Assembly: GCF_900113525.1 (NCBI RefSeq)
Contig: NZ_FOPP01000003.1
Span: 186,001-250,000, forward strand
DNA from: Pedobacter insulae
GTDB taxonomy: Bacteria > Bacteroidota > Bacteroidia > Sphingobacteriales > Sphingobacteriaceae
Direction: 5' to 3'
Length of the DNA: 64,000 bases
Shown piece after piece: positions 25,412 through 37,277 of the stretch; the stretch's first letter is position 1; the number at the start of each line of letters is the position of its first letter. The notes under the pieces are model-generated. The model worked only from the letters and a program-made list of their open reading frames with translations. It was not told where the DNA came from and searched no databases. The translations under genes and the position numbers were made by a program.

Positions 25412-25850
25412 GAGTTAAATCCTTCCATTTTGCAACCATAAAAACGCACTAGTTTTCATCAAAAAATTTAGCGATTTTCTAAAAACACGCCGAATCCGTC
25501 CTTAGTTTTCGCAACACGGTTGCATTTTCTTTCTGAATTCTCGGGAACGTTCCCGAAAACGTTCCCGAAAACTAACCAAAAAGAGCCTTAGTGTCTAAGT
25601 TACACTTTAAAAACTATTTTCAATTTATAAGTAATTGAAATTCAATAATATAAAAAATTTAGTATTTATTTTTAAAAATTAGTTTACCGTAATTTATTTG
25701 CTTTTTTTAATGTTTTACATCTATAAAATATTGCGCTGAAAATAAATATGACATTAAATTTTGAATTATAACGTACAGTACTAAATTTACCATAACATAA
25801 TATACAACTAACACTAATCAAATATTTCACCTTTAAAACGGGCTTTTTTT
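25412..25850. other. Regulatory gap between the LacI gene and susC
   Basis: 439 bases without a gene. It contains an inverted repeat GCAAC-ACG-GTTGC (25511-25523), the strong palindrome pair at 25541-25572, then about 230 AT-rich bases up to susC with no perfect TAnnTTTG box. The long leader before susC may carry post-transcriptional control. Confidence 0.6.
25541..25572. promoter_or_regulatory. LacI-type operator candidates, one perfect and one partial
   Basis: TCGGGAACGTTCCCGA at 25541-25556 is a perfect 16-bp palindrome with the central CG expected of LacI-family sites. Twelve bases on, centred at 25560/25561, AAAACGTTCCCGAAAAC repeats the right half (GTTCCCGA) with a degraded left half. 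Two such sites on nearly one face of the helix suggest cooperative binding by the adjacent LacI protein. Confidence 0.75.
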
Positions 25851-31548: not shown

Positions 31549-31563
31549 GTGTATAAAATACAC
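31549..31563. promoter_or_regulatory. Operator candidate 1 (GTGTA-N5-TACAC) ahead of the first sugar-kinase gene
   Basis: GTGTA TAAAA TACAC, a perfect 5+5 palindrome, lies 150 bp upstream of the BadF-type kinase gene. The same arms and the preceding CTTrG recur upstream of pfkA and of the putative small RNA. See findings for the proposed regulator. Confidence 0.7.
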
Positions 31564-31713: not shown

Positions 31714-32565
31714 ATGATTGTTATTGCAGATGGTGGATCAACTAAAACAAACTGGTGCCTCATAAATGAGGCAGGCAGAAAAATCCATTTTAATACAGAG
31801 GGATATAATCCATATTTTTCGGATAGTGACTATATAGAAAGCTCGTTGAAGAGTTCGCTACCAGATCATCTGGAGGCTGATAAATTAACTGAAGTTTATT
31901 ATTATGGTGCAGGTTGTTCAACAGATGCAAAGCGCAAAATTGTGGAAGATGCAATGCAAAGAGTATTTGTGAACGCTAAAATTAATATTGGACACGATCT
32001 TTTAGCATCTTGTCGTGCTTTATTAGGCGACAACGAAGGCTTTGCTGCCATTTTAGGAACCGGAACCAACACTTGTTTATATGACGGTAACGATATTACC
32101 CTTAATATCGATTCATTAGGTTACTTTTTAGGTGATGAAGGTAGTGGAGGTTTTATGGGTAAAAGGATATTGGCCGATTATATGAAAGGTTATATGCCTA
32201 AAGGTTTAAGAGAAAGCTTTTATGACAATTATGCCCTCACCAATGAAGATATTCTAGACCATATCTATAATAAGCCATTACCAAACCGTTTCTGCGCAAG
32301 CTTTAGCAAATTCATTTACGATTTTAAGGAGAACTATGAGGACTACACCAATTCGGTAGTAGATTATGGCTTTACCGCATTCTTTGAAAATTTGGTTGTC
32401 CATTACCCTAACTATAAAAATTATGAGCTAAATTGCGTTGGCTCAGTTGGGTATAGCTTCAGAGATATTTTAAGTTTAGTAGCAGACAGATATGAAATGG
32501 GTGTTGGAAAAATTATCCGTTCACCAATAGATGACCTGGTAGATTATCATTTAAGCAAAAAATAA
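31714..32565 (+). CDS. BadF/BcrA-type sugar kinase, N-acetylglucosamine-kinase-like (copy 1)
   Basis: A 283-residue ASKHA-fold kinase. It has the phosphate-1 motif VIADGGSTKTNWCLI (residues 3-17), an acidic GHDLLASCRALLG region, the adenosine-side FAAILGTGTNTCLYDG and the conserved GYFLGDEGSGGFMGKRIL. Annotated relatives phosphorylate N-acetylglucosamine or a related hexosamine; that substrate is plausible here because a GH20 hexosaminidase and further sugar enzymes are encoded in the window. A paralogue lies at 34406-35248, within the glycolytic operon. It converges on the Nudix-regulator gene with a shared hairpin. Confidence 0.85.
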   Translation: MIVIADGGSTKTNWCLINEAGRKIHFNTEGYNPYFSDSDYIESSLKSSLPDHLEADKLTEVYYYGAGCSTDAKRKIVEDAMQRVFVNAKINIGHDLLASCRALLGDNEGFAAILGTGTNTCLYDGNDITLNIDSLGYFLGDEGSGGFMGKRILADYMKGYMPKGLRESFYDNYALTNEDILDHIYNKPLPNRFCASFSKFIYDFKENYEDYTNSVVDYGFTAFFENLVVHYPNYKNYELNCVGSVGYSFRDILSLVADRYEMGVGKIIRSPIDDLVDYHLSKK

Positions 32566-32606: not shown

Positions 32607-33296
32607 TTAAAAGGAGATCTCCTTACCAAACAACTTGGCATATTTTCTTTTGTCGAATTTATAAAGTGTTGCTGCTCTGAACGAAACACCTTTTTGTTTT
32701 TCATCAAGTTCTTTAAGCACACCGAAACTCAATATCTTTTTACGGAAGTTTCTTTTATCTAGTTTTTTTCCTAAAATTAACTCGTACACATTTTGTACTT
32801 GAGTTAACGTAAATTTTTCCGGCAATAATTCAAAAGCGATCGGCAAATGCTTAATGCGACGTTTAATTTTCTCTAAACCTTTATCGAAAATGTGTTGGTG
32901 ATCAAAGCCTAATTTGGGTAATTCGCGAACATTGATCCACTGTGCTTTTTTAGCATAAGTAGTAAGCGGTTTAAGCGCTTTATCTCCCCCTAAACGCAAC
33001 ATCGCGTAATAAGCAACTGATATTACTCTTCCTTGTGGGTGCCTGCCTACGTCACCGAACGTATAATATTGCTCCATATACACATCGCTCAAACCGGTAA
33101 GCTCGTGCAAAATACGTGAGGCCGACTGATCTACGCTCTCATCCTCTCCTACCAAATTACCCGGTAAGGCCCACCAATCTTTAAACGGTTCTTCATTTCG
33201 TTCTATTAACAAAATTTTCAGTTCTCCGCCGTCAAAGCCAAATAATACACAATCTATCGAAACTGCAGAATTAAACACAGGTAATACTTCTTTCAA
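32607..33296 (-). CDS. NrtR/AraR-type Nudix-domain transcriptional regulator
   Basis: A 229-residue protein with an N-terminal Nudix fold (about 10-150) and a C-terminal winged helix (about 155-229, RNFRKKILSFGVLKELDEKQ). The Nudix box is degenerate: LPGNLVGEDESVDQSASRIL, then HELTGL. It keeps the GxxxxxE spacing but replaces the catalytic REuxEE with R-I-L-H-E-L. That fits a sensor that binds a nucleotide-sugar or sugar-phosphate ligand without hydrolysing it, as in NrtR and the Bacteroides AraR regulators. It is divergent from pfkA; a palindromic operator lies in the shared 126-bp gap. It is the best candidate to bind the three GTGTA-N5-TACAC sites. Confidence 0.88.
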   Translation of the reverse strand: MKEVLPVFNSAVSIDCVLFGFDGGELKILLIERNEEPFKDWWALPGNLVGEDESVDQSASRILHELTGLSDVYMEQYYTFGDVGRHPQGRVISVAYYAMLRLGGDKALKPLTTYAKKAQWINVRELPKLGFDHQHIFDKGLEKIKRRIKHLPIAFELLPEKFTLTQVQNVYELILGKKLDKRNFRKKILSFGVLKELDEKQKGVSFRAATLYKFDKRKYAKLFGKEISF

Positions 33297-33388: not shown

Positions 33389-33413
33389 GTGTAAAAAATA
33401 CACACTATATTCG
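33389..33413. promoter_or_regulatory. Operator candidate 2 and promoter between the Nudix regulator and pfkA
   Basis: GTGTA AAAAA TACAC at 33389-33403 is followed after 2 nt by TATATTCG at 33406-33413, one mismatch from the -7 consensus TAnnTTTG. A start near 33419 would leave only a 4-nt leader before the pfkA ATG, so this -7 call is tentative. A regulator bound here would cover the core promoter and could also govern the divergent regulator gene. Confidence 0.7.
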
Positions 33414-33422
33414 TATAGCAAA

Positions 33423-34405
33423 ATGGAACCAAATATTAGAAATATTGCCGTATTAACTTCAGGAGGAGACGCTCCGGGCATGAATGCATGCATCAGGGCT
33501 GTTGTTCGTACTGGAATTTATCACGGTAAAAATATGTTTGGGGTAATGCAGGGTTATCAAGGATTGATCAATAACCACATTATCCCTATGAACGCCCGCT
33601 CTGTAAGTAATATTTTACATTTAGGAGGCACTATCTTAAAAACGGCTCGTTGTTTAGAATTTAAAGAAGACGAGGGTATGGAAAAAGCCTTCAAAAATTT
33701 AAAGGAAAAAGAAATCGATGGCTTAATTGTAATTGGTGGCGATGGAACCTTTACTGGAGCGCAACGTTTTGGCAAAAAATACGGTGTTAATGTCATGGGT
33801 ATCCCAGGCACAATTGATAATGATTTGTATGGGTCTGATTTTACACTAGGTTATGATACCGCTGTAAATACCATTATCGAAGCCATAGACAAGATTAGAG
33901 ATACGGCCGATTCACATGATCGTTTGTTCTTTATTGAAGTGATGGGTCGTGATTCGGGTTGCATCGCTTTGCGTACTGCAGTTGCAAGTGGTGCCGAAGC
34001 AGTTTTATTACCCGAAAAAGAAACGTCGCTTAAGGATTTGATCATTAAGTTAAAGGAAGGTGTTAACACCAAAAAATCATCGAGTATTGTGATAGTCTCC
34101 GAAGGAAATAAATATGGTGGAGCTTGGGATATTGCGAAAAGCGTAAAACGTAAGTTTAACCATTACGATACCAAGGTTACTATTTTAGGACATTTACAAC
34201 GAGGTGGGAGTCCGAGTGGCTTTGATCGCATTTTAGGAAGTCGTTTAGGTTTTGCCGCAGTAAATGAAATGCTAAAAGGAGCAACGATGCAAATGGTTGG
34301 TTTGCGCGGTAATGAGATTAAATTGACTAGCTTAGATGTTGCTTTGCATATGCATAGCTACAAATTGGAAGACGATTTATTAGAAATGACTAAAGTATTA
34401 TCCAT

Positions 34406-34409
<4 letters not shown>
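33423..34409 (+). CDS. pfkA: 6-Phosphofructokinase (PfkA type)
   Basis: A 328-residue enzyme that phosphorylates fructose 6-phosphate, the committed glycolytic step. It has the N-terminal nucleotide loop LTSGGDAPGMNACIRA, the VIGGDGTFTGAQ catalytic loop, the GTIDNDLYGSDFTLGYDTAV substrate loop, and the EVMGRDSGCIAL segment. GGDGT rather than the GGDGD of pyrophosphate-dependent enzymes fits an ATP donor. It begins an operon: its last bases overlap the following kinase gene (ATGA), and gap follows 5 nt after that kinase. Confidence 0.96.
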
Positions 34410-36258
<1,849 letters not shown>

Positions 36259-36280
36259 GTAAGCGTAAAATATTTGCTAA

Positions 36281-36313
36281 AAAGCTACAGGTAAATTACC
36301 CGTAGCTTTTTTT
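36281..36313 (+). terminator. Intrinsic terminator of the pfkA-kinase-gap operon
   Basis: Stem AAAGCTAC-A-GGTAA (36281-36294) with TTACC-C-GTAGCTTT (36296-36309), one internal mismatch, followed by a T-run. It starts 22 nt after the gap stop. Confidence 0.88.
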
Positions 36314-36533
36314 ATGTCTACGCCAAATTAATTCATATATAAATTCAAAATTTATTAGTATTCATAAAGATAATAGTCGGAAAAACATTTATTTAACAAA
36401 AATTTAACAGAAAAAATCAAACTAGTTAAAACAATCAGCTTACCTTTACGTTTGTAAATAACAGTTTTAAGCATCATAAAAGCAGTTTTGTCATTTGAAT
36501 AACAGAAAATAAAAATATTTTAAAAAATACTTA

Positions 36534-36572
36534 GTGTAAATTATACACCATTAGATATTATTTATATATTTG
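36534..36572 (+). promoter_or_regulatory. Operator candidate 3 and promoter for a putative small RNA
   Basis: GTGTA AATTA TACAC at 36534-36548 shares the extended left flank TACTTAGTGTAAA with the pfkA site. A perfect -7 box TATATTTG follows at 36565-36572. No good -33 TTTG is seen at the right distance; the operator occupies that place. No protein gene follows on this strand, which makes the promoter unusual. Confidence 0.65.
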
Positions 36573-36578
36573 CATCAT

Positions 36579-36716
36579 CAAATTGTGCTAAAGCAATGAG
36601 GCGCTAAAAGAAAGAAAATACATTCCGCTTTAAGGAATAAAAGAATAACCCGTTCATACAGGTTTATATTTGGTTAGAAAAAGAGATCAGTCTGGATGGA
36701 TGATCTCTTTTCTTGT
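36579..36716 (+). ncRNA. Putative stand-alone small RNA
   Basis: A transcript starting near 36579 and ending in the hairpin-plus-T signal at 36679-36716 would be about 140 nt. It has no open frame longer than a few codons. Three local stems are possible: ATTCC/GGAAT (36622-36638), AACC/GGTT around 36647-36664, and the terminator AAAAGAGATCA/TGATCTCTTTT (36679-36689 and 36701-36711). It does not resemble 6S RNA, tmRNA or a riboswitch that I know. The main caveat is that the terminal hairpin also works on the minus strand for the gene at 36747-37277, so it is not by itself proof of a plus-strand RNA. Confidence 0.5.
36679..36716. terminator. Bidirectional terminator hairpin
   Basis: A perfect 11-bp stem, AAAAGAGATCA (36679-36689) with TGATCTCTTTT (36701-36711), and an 11-nt loop, with T-rich sequence on both sides in the relevant direction. 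It can end the putative small RNA (plus) and the hypothetical gene at 36747-37277 (minus). Confidence 0.85.
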
Positions 36717-36746
36717 TTAAAGAGGAATTCTACTTTAGGATAATTT

Positions 36747-37277
36747 TTAATCTATTCCGAGAACAGATTTATAATAATCCTCATATTGTTCTCCACCAGC
36801 TTTTAAAGCAGCAATATAGGCAACATCTACAGCACGTTTATCTCTCTCATCTTCTTCGTAATCTTTAACAATCATTTCTCTAAAGAACTTCATGATTTCA
36901 ACCAGAGCATCGAGAAATTTACTTGAGTTATCAGCGCACCAGAACATTATTCTCCCTGAAAAACCATCATAAGCAACTATTTTCCCATTTGATTTCAATA
37001 TCCCCAATCGGTCATTAATATCCCATCCAAAAAATATAAATTCTTCATCTTCATATAAATCTGGGTCAAATGTTATATCATTAATATTCAATAAACTAAT
37101 ATCATTTGCTTTAATAAGGTCTATAATTGGGTTATCAGAACTTCCTTGTAAAGAATTATGTTGAATGACAAAAGAATTTAACAAAAGGTTTACCAGCTCA
37201 TCACTATGAGTTGGACTTAATTCTTCTGCAGAAGGTTTCAATTTCGCAATTTCGTTTATAAATTCTTGACTGTTCAT
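36747..37277 (-). CDS. Hypothetical acidic protein, possibly SMI1/KNR4 (SUKH)-like
   Basis: A 176-residue acidic cytoplasmic protein without signal peptide. The stretch 'DLYEDEEFIFFGWDINDRLGILKSNGKIVAYD', followed by 'SSKFLDALVEIMKFFREMI', has the look of the SUKH superfamily, with its aromatic G-W-D strand, a strand-turn ending in a variable acidic patch and a helix near the C-terminus. SUKH proteins often act as immunity partners of contact-dependent toxins, but no toxin gene is nearby, so that role is not supported here. A single-copy hypothetical protein is the safe description. Confidence 0.6.
   Translation of the reverse strand: MNSQEFINEIAKLKPSAEELSPTHSDELVNLLLNSFVIQHNSLQGSSDNPIIDLIKANDISLLNINDITFDPDLYEDEEFIFFGWDINDRLGILKSNGKIVAYDGFSGRIMFWCADNSSKFLDALVEIMKFFREMIVKDYEEDERDKRAVDVAYIAALKAGGEQYEDYYKSVLGID

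Follow-up and report, generated by a model that had tools for sequence, protein, structure and literature searches.

Small RNA control of SusC is so far understood in detail for a single gut species (PMC11697453), and how Bacteroidota rank their many glycan-uptake systems remains poorly understood. In Bacteroides thetaiotaomicron, the small RNA FopS blocks translation of the susC gene BT_3983, an action counteracted by RbpB, and FopS is reported to have been deposited in Rfam (PMC11697453). A second small RNA of the same species, GibS (PMC7366714), is about 145 nt long, uses promoter motif 2 and is induced by GlcNAc. Sugar-responsive transcription in B. thetaiotaomicron also involves BtAraR, an NrtR-family regulator whose effector, L-arabinose, weakens its binding to DNA (PMC4666351). 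In enterobacteria, Spot 42 and SgrS are sugar-controlled small RNAs that lower the expression of uptake or catabolism genes.

Here we describe a small RNA gene in a window of 64,000 nucleotides (the whole stretch of Pedobacter insulae DNA that was analysed). Like FopS, its RNA belongs to a multi-copy family and is predicted to place a single-stranded conserved seed before a terminator hairpin; pairing around susC start codons has been shown for FopS and is predicted here. FopS comes from another bacterial family, Bacteroidaceae, and responds to bile salts, whereas the Sphingobacteriaceae RNA is linked to glycolysis by an operator or by placement in the gapA 3'UTR and has clade-specific terminator loops. 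GibS is alike in length (the Pedobacter RNA is about 140 nt) and in sugar-linked expression and pairing at translation starts, both predicted for the Pedobacter RNA, and differs in its promoter, the Pedobacter gene having an operator and a -7 box. Rfam scans of the loci gave no match to FopS or GibS, with the presence of both families in the library unconfirmed. The FopS family is the nearest known system in its way of working, with kinship by descent unproven. Spot 42 and SgrS resemble the proposed RNA in their effect and differ in being Hfq-dependent, with unrelated sequences, regulators and targets.

Small RNA gene and its surroundings

The region at 36577-36718 is very probably a small RNA gene, its transcription being inferred (Table 1). 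The original prediction, made from the sequence alone, had proposed an operator-controlled small RNA on the strength of a palindrome in common with pfkA, a perfect TATATTTG box, a hairpin followed by a run of T and the absence of an open frame, and had remarked that no good -33 box was visible. All of these readings held: a related palindrome lies at 33389 before pfkA, and the -33 box is indeed missing, the operator occupying its expected place. The hypothesis itself is supported, in the absence of transcript data, and is extended below by conservation, by the register of the operator and by a form of the gene in the gapA 3'UTR.

Table 1. Positions of the features described, numbered from the first base of the window.
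Feature	Position	Strand	Remarks
Predicted core pairing site in the leader of the window's susC (ATG 25851)	25813..25843	+	RNAduplex -24.4 kcal/mol
Operator	31549..31563	none	Precedes the gene at 31714 for a BadF-type sugar kinase
AraR/NrtR-type regulator (Nudix domain and NrtR winged helix)	32607..33296	-	Divergent from pfkA
Operator	33389..33403	none	Intergenic region between regulator and pfkA
pfkA, phosphofructokinase	33423..34409	+	Domain search
Second BadF-type kinase (NagK-like)	34406..35248	+	PF01869, E=0.00096, below cut-off
gapA	35254..36258	+	Domain search; small RNA core lies in its 3'UTR in part of Pedobacter
gapA's own terminator	36280..36314	+	Sequence read; in this strain, keeps operon and small RNA gene apart
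Operator GTGTAAATTATACAC of the small RNA gene	36534..36548	none	Sequence read
Bacteroidota -7 promoter box TATATTTG	36565..36572	+	16 nt past the operator
Small RNA gene, ~140 nt	36577..36718	+	Both ends inferred (5' from the -7 box, 3' from the terminator)
Conserved core ACCCGTTCATACAGGTTTATATTTGGTTAGAAA, probable seed	36648..36680	+	Small 5' hairpin (ACC/GGT; TTCATA in its loop), then a single-stranded linker
Terminator hairpin	36679..36711	+	11 bp, bulged G 36690, 2 bp (TC/GA), hexaloop TGGATG 36693-36698

The linker part of the conserved core reads CAGGUUUAUAUUUGGUUAG, and the T-rich tail after the terminator hairpin runs to 36718. Within the gene no ORF reaches 20 aa, the sole ORF in the list beginning at 36713, and a coding role for the region was dropped for that reason. 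Folding recovered the end hairpin; the z-score of the whole 145 nt was only -1.2, so the case is not carried by structure alone. A second TATATTTG inside the linker (36665-36672) was considered as an extra promoter and is disfavoured, since other genera have TATAATTG there. Rfam 15 gave no matches in the window at the gathering threshold, and a search of 36250-36760 at E<=10 gave sub-threshold hits only. In Pedobacter the gene is positioned behind pfkA, the kinase gene and gapA, either standing alone with an operator or within the gapA 3'UTR.

Operator, promoter register and probable regulator

Matches to the palindrome with up to 3 mismatches number 9 in the window against 3.4 expected, and none of 100 shuffles reached 9. 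Among 120 Pedobacter-type copies (loci L085-L203), GTGTA-N5-TACAC occurs within 220 nt upstream in 77, while 22 follow immediately on the stop codon of gapA (blast end 15 nt ahead of CAGG) and 21 have neither operator nor gapA; six copies have less than 220 nt of upstream sequence. Restricted to the copies with full flanks, the operator is found upstream in 72/109 against 1/109 in a downstream control, and each of these 72 copies has a TAnnTTTG box that begins 13-18 nt past the operator. The operator therefore covers the place of the -33 box.

Outside Pedobacter, an operator-like palindrome lies within 150 nt upstream of 36/66 distinct copies (0/66 in the downstream control) and often abuts or overlaps the -7 box. 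In 34 cases (66 members) the distance from the start of the box to the linker is 21-22 nt, which implies a short RNA in these genera, as a prediction only. The varying position of the palindrome relative to the promoter suits a repressor better than an activator, and the sign of regulation is inferred on that basis.

A loose operator pattern was barely above control genome-wide (49 vs 37), and perfect half-sites alone were therefore used. By pattern search, the perfect-half-site palindrome occurs at six places in the P. insulae genome, preceding the small RNA, pfkA, a BadF-type kinase (that at 31714, whose kinase domain match is below the Pfam cut-off), pyruvate kinase, an aspartate kinase-type gene and an epimerase-type gene.

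The probable owner of the operator is the AraR/NrtR-type protein encoded at 32607-33296, which matches NrtR_WHD (PF21906, 97.5 bits; cut-off 27), AraR_C (PF19368, 58.6 bits; cut-off 23.8) and NUDIX (PF00293, 48.0 bits; cut-off 21.1). Its binding is inferred, only the positions of palindromes having been examined. With BtAraR (PMC4666351) it shares the Nudix-like and winged-helix build of a sugar-gene regulator, and differs in that BtAraR controls arabinose genes whereas the Pedobacter operators precede glycolytic genes and the small RNA. An operator-like palindrome with 2 mismatches also lies at 25591-25605, ~250 nt before the window's susC, which suggests that the same regulator may act on the susC PUL of the window as well.

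Conservation within Pedobacter

The segment 36520-36725 is matched by blastn in 142/145 genomes of the genus, which places the features of the locus beyond chance. Lack of conservation beyond the hairpin would have refuted the original prediction; the 33 nt upstream of the hairpin are instead near-invariant in the 30 best Pedobacter loci (L003-L032), all of which contain the core ACCCGTTCATACAGGTTTATATTTGGTTAGAAA, one with two extra bases. Because these 30 are the best matches, the near-invariance is somewhat flattered. Within one of these loci (L010) a second, weaker blast match covers the 3' part only. More distant Pedobacter copies (L069, L070, L083) have GCCTGGCTCATAACAGG or similar and keep the small 5' hairpin with its TCATA loop, and the sequence upstream of the core varies among copies. 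A separate exact-pattern scan found at least 119 stretches. In one locus (L170), two exact cores lie ~5.5 kb apart, one of them directly behind gapA.

The terminator covaries: in 24 aligned copies, 8 of the 13 pairs changed on both sides, with 48 compensatory cells against 11.8 in shuffles, a value reached by none of 500 shuffles. Its tip consists of one unpaired base, 2 bp (TC/GA, CG/CG or CT/AG) and the hexaloop TGGATG, which reads TGGATA in one copy.

The P. insulae genome holds one strong copy (that of the window), a clear, divergent second copy that has a -7 box of its own (E 1.3e-6) and two probable copies behind thioredoxin-domain genes (E 0.02 and 0.12). The last two were accepted only for their bulge, 2 bp and CGGATG or TGGATG loop.

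Distribution across Sphingobacteriaceae

A covariance model (R2) found the family in 281/301 sampled Sphingobacteriaceae genomes and 19/25 genera (E<=1e-4), including 69/69 Pedobacter genomes, and its copy number in a genome ranges from 1 to at least 15, 15 being the scoring cap. Copy number is at this cap in genome G159 and in other g16, g4 and g15 genomes, against 1-5 in Pedobacter. In a class-wide sample, 18/395 genomes match, 15 of them within Sphingobacteriaceae; the sequences of the three matches outside it (L249-L251, E 1.3e-4 to 7e-4) were read and their membership was not accepted. Two of these, L250 (G656) and L249 (G653), carry AGATTGATAATTGGTTTG and AGATTTATAATTTGTTT, respectively, before a terminator, and both sequences may be distantly related to the linker.

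Weak matches in other genera, inspected singly, are clear relatives. Of 30 such loci, 27 hold AGGTTTATAATTGGTTA, which is one base off the Pedobacter linker; L226 and L213 lack the linker, and L204, which the search pattern used for these loci missed, reads TTGGTTTATAATTGG. The motif is invariant in 24 aligned other-genus copies, an invariance that is partly built in, most letters of the motif being required by the selection pattern. The terminator loops of these genera, GCCCATC or TCTCCCCG, are unlike that of Pedobacter.

We conclude that the RNA represents a conserved multi-copy family that spans Sphingobacteriaceae and is not reported by Rfam 15, with high confidence as regards the small RNA itself. 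No description of it was found in the titles and abstract openings of the open-access literature searched, a scope that leaves out most subscription journals and all bioRxiv preprints.

Complementarity to SusC translation starts

In a first RNAduplex screen of 122 gene starts, SusC genes filled the top of the list and the susC of the window ranked first. The SusC set used for the comparisons that follow comprises 54 of 56 SusC-type matches (TIGR04056; 53 above cut-off and one below). The median linker energy of the 54 SusC leaders was -8.65 kcal/mol and that of 90 other starts -6.8 kcal/mol (p=1.4e-5), and none of 200 shuffled linkers reached either the SusC mean or the difference between SusC and other starts. 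Strong sites (<= -12 kcal/mol) occur in 16/54 SusC leaders against 3/90 other starts (p=1.1e-5); examples are CTAACCAAAATATAAAC before L314 and CTAACCAAATTAAAAACC before L316. SusC start codons were picked by a signal-peptide rule, and the other 90 starts are first-ATG mechanical ORFs, some of them spurious, so errors are present in both sets.

The complementarity is confined both in the leader and in the RNA. It peaks at -30 to -10 from the ATG, where the mean excess over shuffles is -2.7 kcal/mol (at -20 and -10), and the excess is near zero at -200 and -240 and +1.1 at +40. Of 22 windows of 15 nt along 36576-36716, only the four beginning at 36648, 36654, 36660 and 36666, all in the conserved core, showed a preference for SusC at p<=0.02.

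In two genomes of other genera (44/53 and 37/54 SusC matches used), the linker type of those genera beat all 200 shuffles. The single base that distinguishes the Pedobacter linker from that of other genera was mirrored in the SusC leaders only at a borderline level (p=0.05). In two genomes of other families, in which the RNA is not convincingly present, 21 SusC leaders (n=10 and 11) also exceed shuffles, with a similar and weaker signal (z -1.6 to -3.4). Part of the complementarity is therefore a general property of SusC leaders; related RNAs may be present in those families too, or the leaning may have a separate reason. Overall, the core probably pairs with SusC leaders, a conclusion that rests on in silico complementarity only.

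Proposed mechanism and alternatives

The conservation of the gene, its structure, the operator and -7 box in fixed register, the linkage to gapA and the complementarity to SusC starts are shown here; transcription, the identity, sign and signal of the regulator, and repression of SusC are inferred. The reading we favour as likely is a trans-acting, glycolysis-coupled anti-SusC small RNA that works like FopS and GibS. The AraR/NrtR-type repressor, which is also predicted to act through operators before pfkA, pyruvate kinase and a sugar kinase, would keep the small RNA off until a sugar signal lifts it, and the RNA would then be made along with the glycolytic genes. Elsewhere in Pedobacter, placement in the gapA 3'UTR and transcription with gapA would bring about this coupling. 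The core (TTCATA loop and linker CAGGUUUAUAUUUGGUUAG) would base-pair with the susC start codon and the 30 nt leading up to it, blocking translation initiation, and uptake systems for other glycans would be turned down while the glycolysis genes are on.

A bolder reading, which we regard as no better than an open bet, takes the small RNA as a mobile module and as a carbon-preference switch of Sphingobacteriaceae, one RNA dampening many SusC systems simultaneously. With equal reserve, its fixed anti-SusC core would be wired to glycolysis by an AraR/NrtR-type operator or by the gapA 3'UTR, and in some genera the core would be wired to a tRNA-like element. If true, this would be a small RNA form of carbon catabolite repression in Bacteroidota, and FopS in Bacteroidaceae would be the counterpart of the Sphingobacteriaceae module, by descent or by convergence.

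The alternative that survives best, and which we still consider unlikely, is that the operator-controlled small RNA is real and its match to SusC is a by-product of A-/C-rich leaders, the true partners of the core being other messages or another small RNA. Three observations favour it: in two families that lack a convincing copy, leaders likewise score beyond shuffles, a strong site is present in only 16/54 SusC leaders, and the linker is kept genus-wide, beyond what loosely matching targets seem to need. Against it, the preference for SusC is limited to the conserved core, the other 18 windows not being significant, and it is placed immediately upstream of the start codon and sets SusC apart from other starts.

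It is likewise improbable that the core serves mainly to bind a protein (e.g. an RbpB-like RRM-1 protein), by way of the linker or of the hairpin with its bulge, 2 bp and TGGATG loop, so that the RNA would be a sponge or a stability element. Bulge, 2 bp and hexaloop persist through changes of the stem pairs, and FopS is bound by RbpB in Bacteroides (PMC11697453). However, other genera keep the linker and have different loops (GCCCATC, TCTCCCCG), and protein binding leaves the complementarity to SusC unexplained.

That the element is merely a conserved terminator or 3'UTR stability element moving between genes, without a trans function, is very unlikely: copies do lie behind gapA and probably also behind two thioredoxin-domain genes in P. 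insulae, but 77/120 copies have an operator of their own, the -7 box is in register where full flanks are available, and the conserved part is upstream of the terminator.

Under the preferred reading of an anti-SusC small RNA, what is known is the kind of small RNA, from FopS and GibS; what is likely new is a SusC-directed paralogous family in another bacterial family, coupled to glycolysis, with its action on SusC inferred. If true, a family-wide anti-SusC RNA tied to glycolysis in two independent ways would make small RNA control of SusC general and would provide a concrete link between glycolytic state and uptake. With one to four copies, P. insulae would be an easier system for deletion than B. 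thetaiotaomicron with its 14 FopS copies.

tRNA-like elements upstream of some copies

A conserved tRNA-like element of ~115 nt lies immediately upstream of the small RNA module in L254, L255, L258, L259, L260 and L218, the last with three tandem copies. The element has an 8-bp acceptor-like stem (CTGTAGGA/TCCTACAG) with compensatory changes, a T-arm with a TTCGA loop and a D-arm-like stem. A tRNA identity was not retained, as neither ARAGORN nor Rfam at E<=1 made a call. In L256 (G157:C9:18014-18086 with upstream sequence), another module copy comes after a tRNA-like sequence of a different kind, itself preceded by its own TATATTTG box.
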